Made by a program: the position numbers and the translations under genes
Shown: positions 17,249 to 20,599 of the stretch, piece after piece
Position numbering within the stretch: position 1 is the first letter of the stretch
Layout of the letters: each line of letters begins with the position of its first letter
The notes under the pieces: generated by a model
The model's input: only the letters and a program-made list of their open reading frames with translations
Database searches by the model: none
What the model was told of the DNA's origin: nothing
NCBI GenBank assembly: GCA_029247205.1
Contig: JAQWLT010000022.1
Span: forward strand, 1-64,000
DNA from: Phycisphaerales bacterium
Lineage (GTDB): Bacteria > Planctomycetota > Phycisphaerae > Phycisphaerales > SM1A02
Reading direction: 5' to 3'
Length of the DNA: 64,000 bases

Positions 17249-18128
17249 ATGAGACGTGGCTTAACAAACGAAATGGTGAACGTTGTCCTGTGCTGCAGCA
17301 CGCCCGCTGTATTGGCTGTGTCCACCCTCGGATCCACGACAGAGCGAATAGCCAGCGACTTCCTTGATGCACTCCCTGTTCAGAACGACTTCGAGGCCGC
17401 GGCACTCACAGGATCACTGACTGATATCCAGAAATTCGAACTCAATGCCGTCATCGTAGAGTTCGAACACGCACGATCGGCGCTTCTCAAGAAAACCGCA
17501 ACCCGACTTGAGCCTGCGTGCGAGCTGATCCTGACAATCCCCAAGAACGATGAGCAACACGAGCATCTCGACACGCTTGAGGAGTTTGGAGTTGCACTTG
17601 AGCTTGCAAAGATCAGCGTTTCTAGAGACGTTCTTGCTCTGCGCCGCGATCTACATAACCAAGCAACGCCTTATCTTGGTCCAACTCAAACCAATCTCTG
17701 GCGCGACGCTCTTGACTCGGCGGTTCGCAATCGTGTTCTGGATCCAAAGAATCGATCCGCGGAGGGTGTCGACCTCTCCGCCGCCTGCGACCTCGAAACA
17801 ATCCCTGATCTCCAACTGATTGCATCGTGGGCAATCAGGTCAAGTGAACCAAATCTGGTGGACCCAAAACTTATTGAGCAAGTCACCGATCGCCTATCCG
17901 AAGGCGCAAGGGACATTCAAGCGGCATTCGATCGGTCGCATCATCAACACCATTCGTATGCAACTAGCAGCCATCCGTGGCGATCATCACAAGTCACAGG
18001 CACTCACGAAGAAGAACCAGCGGCGGTGGGCGGACATTCTCGACTACCGCCAGAAACAAGTGCATGCCGAGGCCCTGAAACAATTCTCAAACAGATGTGA
18101 TGCAACCGGAGATCAATTGATCTGGTAG
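17249..18128 (+). pseudogene. Hypothetical helical exported protein, apparently frameshifted near 17930-17945
   Basis: Frame-2 ORF 17249-18100 looks natural up to DIQAAFDR, then becomes low-quality; frame 3 resumes a plausible protein (IINTIRMQLAAIRGDHHKSQALTKKNQRRWADILDYRQKQ) to a stop at 18128. Confidence 0.5.
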
Positions 18129-18171
18129 CAGCACATCGCACTCATCCATTCTTTTAGAGGAGATCCTTGAT

Positions 18172-18579
18172 ATGAAACCCGGAACAGTTCTACTCTTTGT
18201 CGCGTCAATCTTGTGCGCGACCGCACTGACACCCACGGTCCTCCAGGCAGCCCAACTGACCACTGTCAAGAAACCGGCGATCCTAGTCGACCTAGATTGG
18301 TTTAGTGAATGCGTTGCTGCATCCGCCTGCCCATCCAGCACTGCGGCCTGTGCTTCTCCGACGCTTAGATGCTCCTATTGCTCCACAGCGAGAACGTCTG
18401 GTGAATGCAATCGCGGCGCTTGGTCGTCCTGCGCTGAGAGCAGCGGGCCCGCCGGTTTTTGTGGATCAGCCGTATCTGGAACCTGCCTTAATGCAAACTG
18501 CACTCCACTAGGCGGCACGGTGCCCAGTATTAGTTGCATGATCACGAGTTGCAATGACACAACCGGCGTGTCTTGGTGA
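18172..18579 (+). CDS. Secreted cysteine-rich mini-protein (about 110 aa mature, 12 Cys)
   Basis: AGGAG Shine-Dalgarno upstream; signal peptide MKPGTVLLFVASILCATALTPTVLQA; 12 cysteines in the mature region. Confidence 0.75.
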   Translation: MKPGTVLLFVASILCATALTPTVLQAAQLTTVKKPAILVDLDWFSECVAASACPSSTAACASPTLRCSYCSTARTSGECNRGAWSSCAESSGPAGFCGSAVSGTCLNANCTPLGGTVPSISCMITSCNDTTGVSW

Positions 18580-19895
18580 AGATACGTACACCCATCCGCA
18601 AAGGGGCCTTCATGCTGTTGGCAACCACAGCGTGCACACTCGGCAGCAATGCTGCCGAGAGTTCTGGTCGCGAGTGGACAAAACAGCATGTCTTGCAGTT
18701 GATTGACGAAGCCACAAGGCAACCCCCATCGTCGTTTATTCTTCACCGAACACTCGAGAAGAGTTGCTCAATTGCTGCAACAAGCGAGCAACACGACTCT
18801 GCGCATCATGTGTTTGACCTTGACCCGCTCAGAGGCATACCAACCTCTGAGCGGGGCGAGGAAACGATCGTGTCGGATGGACTGAGCATCAGCATTGAGG
18901 GTGCTCACGATGAAATCTCACAACAACACCTCGTCGATGGACAACTCCGGGCCGATGTGTACCGGAATCCCAAAGATCGATACCACGAAGTTCTGACCGA
19001 TGTCGGATGGTATGTGTGGTACACAGGCGATACCAAGCTTGGTATCAAGTCTGCCCCGACCGTCGCATTCACAATGCCGTTCTATGGCCGCAGTAGTTTC
19101 TCTCGCTTGTGGTGTGGTTCATCTGGGGCCGCCGGTATGTTGACGCCAGGCCAACTCGAACTCCTTAATCTGGAGTCTGCTCATGTACAAGACGGTGTTC
19201 TTGTAGCGCAACTCGGTCACGACCAACACCCCTCTGCCCCAGCTGAAGACCAATACCGCGTTGTTTCCAAGGTTCAGATTGAACTGGATGCAGGTGGTGG
19301 CCCCAGATTGTTGTCATTCACGAACATCTCCTCCTATATGTACGACGGCGTTCGCACATTTCATGCACACATCGCCTACAGCGTCACCGAGTGGATGAAG
19401 GTTGGTGATATCGACATTCCACGAACAGCCACGATTGACCAGTTCTTGTTTGCACCCTTCATGGCCACAGATCCGGGATTGAGCTGGTGCCCCAGAGGCC
19501 AGATGCACCGCATCACCATGACTCATGAGGACTATCGACCGGTCACACAGAACGAAGCAACGAAGAAGTTGGCCCGAATACCGGAGCAAGAGGGCGTCAG
19601 TGTGTTCGCCGAAGATCTTGGCCTCTCCTACAAACTTGGCCTCGACACGGTCTGGATGGATGGCGAACCCTACGCACTACCGGAGCCAATCTTCGAGCAT
19701 CCTGTGAATGGGTTTGAGCGCATCCTTGAGTCTTCTACATTGCTTCCGATCTCAGAAATACAAAGGATTGAAGATATGGAGTCCAAAGCAGCAATCTCGC
19801 CTTGGGCAAGCAGCAAAGTGTTGATTGGTCTGATGGTAGTGGCGTTCTCACTTCTAGTGGCGGGCCTATGGCGGCGTTGGAAGGCCGCTGTATGA
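18576..19895 (+). CDS. Hypothetical exported protein with C-terminal TM and basic tail
   Basis: GTGA overlap with the Cys-rich gene; Sec signal; C-terminus KVLIGLMVVAFSLLVAGLWRRWKAAV. Confidence 0.8.
   Translation: MKIRTPIRKGAFMLLATTACTLGSNAAESSGREWTKQHVLQLIDEATRQPPSSFILHRTLEKSCSIAATSEQHDSAHHVFDLDPLRGIPTSERGEETIVSDGLSISIEGAHDEISQQHLVDGQLRADVYRNPKDRYHEVLTDVGWYVWYTGDTKLGIKSAPTVAFTMPFYGRSSFSRLWCGSSGAAGMLTPGQLELLNLESAHVQDGVLVAQLGHDQHPSAPAEDQYRVVSKVQIELDAGGGPRLLSFTNISSYMYDGVRTFHAHIAYSVTEWMKVGDIDIPRTATIDQFLFAPFMATDPGLSWCPRGQMHRITMTHEDYRPVTQNEATKKLARIPEQEGVSVFAEDLGLSYKLGLDTVWMDGEPYALPEPIFEHPVNGFERILESSTLLPISEIQRIEDMESKAAISPWASSKVLIGLMVVAFSLLVAGLWRRWKAAV
18639..18659. repeat. Perfect 9-bp inverted repeat CTCGGCAGC-AAT-GCTGCCGAG inside a CDS
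   Basis: Read directly in the sequence. Confidence 0.8.
18824..18855. repeat. Perfect 12-bp inverted repeat CCCGCTCAGAGG-(8 nt)-CCTCTGAGCGGG inside a CDS
   Basis: Read directly in the sequence. Confidence 0.85.
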
Positions 19896-20599
19896 AAACG
19901 CTCATACTGATATCTATCGTGATGGTGTGTGCGATTGGTGGATGTGCTCAGTCTGAGGATCCGCAAGCAACTGCCGCATCTGTCGTCGGTGATTTCACGC
20001 ATGACTTTGGACGCATCGATCTTGATCGCGATCCCGTCACCAGAACACACACCTTCGAACTCACGAACACAACACATGCGCCAATCATCGTGACGGACGT
20101 CAAGAGTACGTGCGGCTGCACCAAGGCCGAACTCTCTGCGCGGACTATCCCAGCTGGAAAATCTGTTGCCGTCACAGTCGGTATGCAGTTCACCTCCTCG
20201 GGGACTAAAACTGCGCAGGTGCATTTGATCACGCAGCGGGATACCACCAGATCGATCATGCTCACCGTGGCAGGGCAGGGCCGTTCGCTTCGGCAAATTC
20301 GCGTGGCTGAAACCGTGCGAATGAAGCCCGGTGAAACTCGCTCGGTCCCCATCATTGCGAGTAGCTATATGCCACAAGCGGCGCCGCCTATATTCGCCGT
20401 CGACGCCCCAGCATTCATCCACACGGAGTTACACCCGTGGTCGATGATGCAAACGCTTGATTCAGATCGCGGCGCTGCGGCCAAGTGGCGTGGACTCATG
20501 GAAGTCTCTGTGAGCCACGATGCGAAGGCGGGCCTCCATAAGATTGCCTTGAACTCCGAGTTCGGGGCACCGAAAGTCGTATCGGTTCGTGTTCGCTAG
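19892..20599 (+). CDS. DUF1573 domain lipoprotein
   Basis: Lipobox VCAIGGC; HDFGRIDLDRDPVTRTHTFELTN and VKSTCGCTKAEL motif of DUF1573; ATGA overlap with upstream gene. Confidence 0.88.
   Translation: MKTLILISIVMVCAIGGCAQSEDPQATAASVVGDFTHDFGRIDLDRDPVTRTHTFELTNTTHAPIIVTDVKSTCGCTKAELSARTIPAGKSVAVTVGMQFTSSGTKTAQVHLITQRDTTRSIMLTVAGQGRSLRQIRVAETVRMKPGETRSVPIIASSYMPQAAPPIFAVDAPAFIHTELHPWSMMQTLDSDRGAAAKWRGLMEVSVSHDAKAGLHKIALNSEFGAPKVVSVRVR

Follow-up and report, generated by a model that had tools for sequence, protein, structure and literature searches.

An exported gene set joining a twelve-cysteine protein, a probably LolA-like protein and a DUF1573 protein in some aquatic Planctomycetota

The window, the whole 64-kb stretch of DNA that was analysed, carried four co-directional genes that we call A, B, C and D (Table 1). 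The initial annotation had described B as a short exported ORF with a clear Shine-Dalgarno sequence, a signal peptide and 12 mature cysteines, and a second reading of the sequence agreed with it on every point, coordinates included. B started with ATG, had a hydrophobic signal peptide at its N-terminus and contained 13 cysteines in total, of which the 12 mature ones were C47, C53, C60, C67, C70, C79, C87, C97, C105, C110, C122 and C127. The stop/start overlaps reported earlier were also found where they had been placed: the B stop (TGA, 18577-18579) overlapped an in-frame GTG of C at 18576 (GTGA), whereas the automatic ORF call put the start of C at a TTG (18573), and the C stop (TGA) overlapped the ATG of D at 19892 (ATGA). 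C had a single C-terminal transmembrane segment (TM, approximately residues 407-435) followed by the tail WRRWKAAV, again as annotated. A scan for promoters and terminators gave no signal above chance level.

Table 1. Features of the gene set in the window.
Feature	Position	Strand	Basis
Component A ORF (283 aa), exported helical protein	17249..18100	+	tblastn with own-genome homologue; homologues 5' of B in most loci
Out-of-frame ORF, C-terminal part IRMQLAAIRGDHHKSQ... resembling continuation of A	17820..18128	+	Sequence reading beside homologues
Shine-Dalgarno-like AGAGGAG, 9 nt 5' of B start	18156..18162	+	Sequence
Component B, exported, 135 aa, 12 mature Cys	18172..18579	+	Framework common to 33 sequences
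Component C, exported, probably LolA-like domain, C-terminal TM, basic tail WRRWKAAV	18576..19895	+	AlphaFold2 model, PDB fold search, homologues
TM segment and basic tail of C	19797..19892	+	Hydropathy
Component D, DUF1573 protein, lipoprotein/N-anchored	19892..20599	+	PF07610 match; homologues near or fused to C
CGC motif of D (C74-G75-C76)	20111..20119	+	C-x-C in 29/30 D proteins; selenocysteine homologues UGC

Single-sequence searches in relatives, together with profile searches in the order, class, phylum and family, placed B at 34 loci in 20 genomes. Nineteen of these genomes belonged to the same family as the window, and one (L060, with two B-C pairs in tandem) belonged to another family of the class. 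Thus, cysteine-rich homologues did stand next to the C and DUF1573 genes in related genomes, as the initial annotation had proposed that they should, and the recurring set included fused and permuted forms. Three loci (L025, L026 and L052) were excluded as false B matches, while two weak matches, L049 (genome G019) and L051 (G213), were counted on the strength of the C and D homologues next to them. Six C-like loci without B (L130, L132, L138, L139, L142 and L143) and one A-C-D locus without B (L126) were kept outside the count. At the family level (181 genomes in 45 genera), the B profile matched 15 genomes from 12 genera and the C profile 21 from 17; a divergent B adjoined many of the C-profile matches beyond those of the B profile. 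Neither profile matched in any of eight further genomes from the genus of the window. Additionally, a search with the fused C-D alignment found the module in three metagenome-assembled Planctomycetota genomes, and B was not found in a search of plasmids. The carriers of the module were some aquatic Planctomycetota.

Up to four divergent copies of B were present per genome, with four each in G017 (a single contig, 99% complete) and G024. Contig C15 (L013) of the window's own genome held another A-B-C set, with no D behind it, and the two copies were 43% identical in B and 37% identical in C. Since 33 sequences shared the 12-cysteine framework and the own genome held this second set, the cysteine-rich ORF can be taken, on sequence comparison, as a real gene family rather than a chance reading frame. 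The genes surrounding the set, as read by eye, varied among loci (ATP synthase genes, fabF-like pairs, recR/rpoN-like genes). Because the surroundings differed, the sites of the module were non-syntenic and its recurrence did not reflect conserved synteny of one chromosome region. One could regard B as wall material, a unit of the planctomycete cell surface that is rich in disulfides, as it was exported, rich in cysteine and present in several copies; that the searches did not find it in most relatives, including all eight congeners tested, speaks against a general wall part and makes this reading quite unlikely.

The second own-genome copy lay on a contig with an unusual repeat. Namely, C15 contained six copies of a 45-52-nt repeat (starts in L013 at 507, 1875, 2361, 3746, 7418 and 8080) with the core CACCTCCGTATTCACGGGGGTG, a near-perfect hairpin, followed in several copies by TTGTTGTTGAG, and one copy was located 3' of each plus-strand gene or gene group. 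Approximately six further copies were on contig C44 (L185), next to plus- and minus-strand genes alike. C20, C29 and C37 had one or two, and the 64-kb window had none. The repeat is a candidate for a repeated terminator, a REP-like element or an attC-like site. An integron origin of the second module copy is one idea that the position of the repeat behind genes on C15 would fit, but the C44 copies beside genes of either strand fit it less well, and a crude pattern search of 1.1 Mb brought up no clear tyrosine recombinase. A copy of the repeat on C29 adjoined a gene for another exported protein with 27 cysteines in 252 aa (L172, 5805-6563).

B was located immediately 5' of C wherever both were visible (33 loci), and 28 of the 32 loci that could be assessed had D, either as a separate gene or joined to C. 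A was recognisable in 19 loci; profile E-values of sequences used to build the profiles are not independent evidence, and A was found in loci outside its profile-building set (L046, L049, L095, L127, L128, L131 and L140). The gene order was permuted in four loci, namely B-C-D-A in L046, D-A-B-C in L049 and D-B-C in L092 and L093. In eight others (L022, L024, L044, L045, L047, L048, L135 and L136), C and D formed a single protein. Because of these fusions and permutations, the linkage of A, B, C and D was more than neighbourhood. Most of the C-D fusions had a TM-loop-TM hairpin with a basic loop between the LolA-like and DUF1573 parts, and hydropathy suggested that the TM and basic tail of the window C correspond to the first TM of this hairpin. 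Since the tail of C is basic and short, the simplest predicted topology places both domains of the fusions outside the inner membrane, on the same side.

An adjacent D was lacking in the own-genome C15 copy and in L060, L061 and L134, and several C homologues had no TM. As some copies thus lacked D or the TM tail, B and C are, judged by gene content, the constant core of the module. Taken together, these comparisons showed a predicted exported module of four components that was kept through duplication, changes of gene order and C-D fusion. The exported cassette of cysteine-rich, TM-tailed and DUF1573 proteins put forward in the initial annotation was therefore upheld by its recurrence, its fusions and its permuted order. 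The role that the annotation gave to B, a substrate in a surface assembly or secreted-peptide system, is putative, and the overlapping start and stop codons make the three genes candidates for cotranscription. In two loci from different genera (L020, 6012-6721, and L095, 7743-8385), a frameshift immediately past the CxC region divided the D gene into two frames that overlapped by approximately 85 bases; a sequencing error, decay or a programmed shift are all possible. Moreover, the own genome encoded an orphan DUF1573 protein resembling the D of the cassette (L070 on contig C25, 5779-6552) with no B or C nearby, which might serve the C15 copy that has no D.

The cysteine framework of B, C-C-C-C-x2-C-C-C-CG-C-C-C-C, was common to 33 comparable sequences. 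Among these, Cys 3 and Cys 9 were both absent in L049, L061, L092, L093 and L140, and Cys 4 and Cys 10 were both absent in L022, L050 and L131; no other pair was jointly lost. In L134, Cys 3 was lost and a displaced cysteine left Cys 9 ambiguous. The Fisher values for the two co-losses were 2.5e-5 and 1.8e-4, both ignoring descent, and each co-loss may reflect as few as one event, which the weak tree does not rule out. The number of cysteines was even in nearly all B proteins. The script returned an odd parity for three of them (L128, L134 and L131), which in L128 and L134 can be explained by a signal-peptide cysteine counted in and an N-terminal one counted out; the B of L131 was truly odd with 11 cysteines. 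Since Cys 3/9 and Cys 4/10 were lost in pairs and the cysteine number was mostly even, B is probably held by disulfides, about six of them. The disulfide topology, which the initial annotation had left for prediction, can be partly drawn from these paired losses, with C60-C105 and C67-C110 as predicted bonds. A metal or redox carrier, with metal bound or electrons passed on by the cysteines of B and by the CxC of D, would agree with the cysteine density, with the CxxC at c4-c5 of B and with the CxC of D. However, the mostly even cysteine number and the pairwise co-loss fit disulfides better, and the B alignments contained no conserved His/Asp ligands, so we consider such a carrier distinctly improbable.

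In most comparisons between related cassettes, B was at least as conserved as A, C and D. This made a fast-evolving toxin a less fitting description of B. We considered the possibility that B is a released, disulfide-stabilised antibacterial, that C and D hold it or protect the producer, and that genomes collect divergent copies, as might be expected from a small, secreted, cysteine-rich product with several divergent copies per genome and a patchy occurrence (15-21 of 181 family genomes and none of eight congeners). This role in competition appeared unlikely, given that B was not hypervariable, that typical immunity proteins are smaller and simpler than C and D and that no toxin, bacteriocin or defence family was matched. 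Specifically, Pfam and NCBIfam profiles gave no convincing match to 16 B proteins (best value 0.0053, in one member), with known disulfide-rich and bacteriocin families among those not matched, and PADLOC anti-phage defence profiles matched none of five proteins. A PDB sequence profile search with B also gave no match, and the AlphaFold2 model of B from four sequences (pLDDT 33) was too low in confidence to use. In Bacteroidota, NVEALA-type cysteine-rich peptides occur near DUF1573 genes, and B is likewise small, exported, cysteine-rich and near a DUF1573 protein; in contrast, none of the tested B proteins matched any such family in Pfam. On these profile comparisons, B is to be regarded as a new family of cysteine-rich proteins.

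For C, an AlphaFold2 model from four sequences had a mean pLDDT of 49, with core blocks at 70-87. The first four ranks of a Foldseek comparison of this model with the PDB all belonged to the LolA superfamily (3buu A and B, 9tp6 and 3bk5), with probabilities of 0.90-1.00 and E-values of 0.004-0.012, at low TM-scores and at the model's low mean pLDDT. No sequence profile of Pfam or NCBIfam, those of LolA families included, matched C or eight homologues, and a PDB sequence profile search with C gave no match. The model thus suggests that C is likely LolA-like. It differs from the known superfamily (LolA, LolB, RseB/MucB) in its length of approximately 440 aa, its C-terminal TM and tail, and its 12-cysteine partner. 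The TM and basic tail at the extreme C-terminus also recall the substrates of PEP-CTERM/exosortase systems, and the genome encoded an exosortase. Nevertheless, C had no PEP-like motif, the alignments showed no conserved motif before its TM, and the fusions ran on past the tail, placing the basic stretch internally and following it with a second TM and D. A sorting signal for a surface protein at this position is therefore very unlikely, and exosortase sorting of C was rejected as contradicted by the C-D fusions.

The initial annotation was right that an exported, co-directional ORF precedes B. It called this ORF hypothetical and counted three coupled genes, but homologues stood beside B elsewhere and the ORF represents component A. 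These homologues were approximately 440-520 aa long, compared with 283 aa in the window. By tblastn, the window A matched residues 41-210 of the 444-aa own-genome homologue in frame (E=3e-25). Read by eye, the overlapping ORF at 17820-18128 resembled a continuation of A (compare IQLQLAQIQGRED in L013), and tblastn gave no significant segment for it. An apparent frameshift lay near 17935-17960, and the C-terminal third was missing relative to the homologues. The window A, in frame for its N-terminal half only, looks frameshifted and shortened, or else affected by an assembly error. As it is degraded here, A may be dispensable.

A resembled Spy/CpxP proteins (LTXXQ, PF07813) in being exported and helical, in having two LxxxQ motifs in several homologues and in one weak match (E=0.0021) among 12 members; on the other hand, it was two to three times longer, and the LTXXQ profile did not match the other 11. 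An envelope sensor could be imagined with C in an RseB-like (LolA-fold) role and A in a CpxP/Spy-like one, the two sensing the state of the envelope via B and signalling across the membrane through the C tail. The modelled fold of C, the weak LTXXQ match of one A homologue and the paired LxxxQ motifs of several would suit such a role, and in L023 (6025-8480) sensor-kinase-like and response-regulator-like genes were located directly upstream of B-C-D. Yet the cytoplasmic tail of C was short (~8-15 residues) and not conserved, several C proteins had no TM and no regulator was present at the other loci read, which together make a sensor improbable.

The assignment of the third gene to DUF1573 was confirmed by a PF07610 match of 66.2 bits (gathering score 26.1; E=2.7e-18), and the match to NF041425 (OS_HP2) fell below the curated cut-off. 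Among the D proteins of the module loci, the lone one without C-x-C was the second C-D protein in L136, which had no B on the same strand. The motif was also found in the own genome's three other DUF1573 proteins outside the cassette; being general in DUF1573, it is non-specific evidence. Homologues of PF07610 include selenoproteins with UGC (PMC9312934, PMC13188914), and the same DUF1573 family has selenoprotein members with UxC (PMC2398784). By analogy, selenocysteine at the position of the D motif is a strong hint of thiol chemistry. D shared the domain and the C-G-C motif with DUF1573/OS_HP2 proteins and differed from them in an extra region at the C-terminus, where a PARW motif recurred, in its N-terminal anchor and in its constant partnership with B and C. 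The periplasm can be expected to be oxidising, since the genome encoded a disulfide-forming enzyme of the VKOR type that was joined to thioredoxin-like domains.

We infer that D and C act on B and that A assists. Our main explanation, which we hold tentatively and at somewhat less than even confidence, is that C and D serve to fold or display B, a disulfide-rich protein, and that A helps them in soluble form. B would be secreted by Sec, and oxidation in the periplasm would then turn it into a compact six-disulfide protein. C would be tethered in the inner membrane, its LolA-type half barrel holding or presenting B or a hydrophobic ligand, and D would be anchored beside it, as the fusion of the two in many copies suggests. 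Thiol-disulfide exchange at the CxC of D would form or proof-read the bonds of B, and A would act as a soluble periplasmic helper. In such a scheme, B, the best conserved part, would be the working product, and C, D and A its dedicated folding and holding apparatus. Antagonism, sensing, metal carriage, wall material and exosortase sorting were each placed below this explanation as less likely.

No publication describing the module was found in the open-access literature. The module itself is well supported. Within that literature it is undescribed, and no known system matches it, although the domain type of D is known and the fold of C probably is too. A broader and more doubtful proposal is that the module represents a lineage-specific export system for a family of six-disulfide secreted proteins that has diversified within genomes to as many as four copies, every one made with its own membrane-tethered LolA-fold carrier and DUF1573 thiol partner. 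If true, it would give DUF1573 a first function, namely disulfide handling for a dedicated client. DUF1573 is widespread yet unexplained, and here it was tied to LolA-like and disulfide-rich partners by fusion and by repeated co-location. This link yields a testable hypothesis, the CxC-dependent folding of B.
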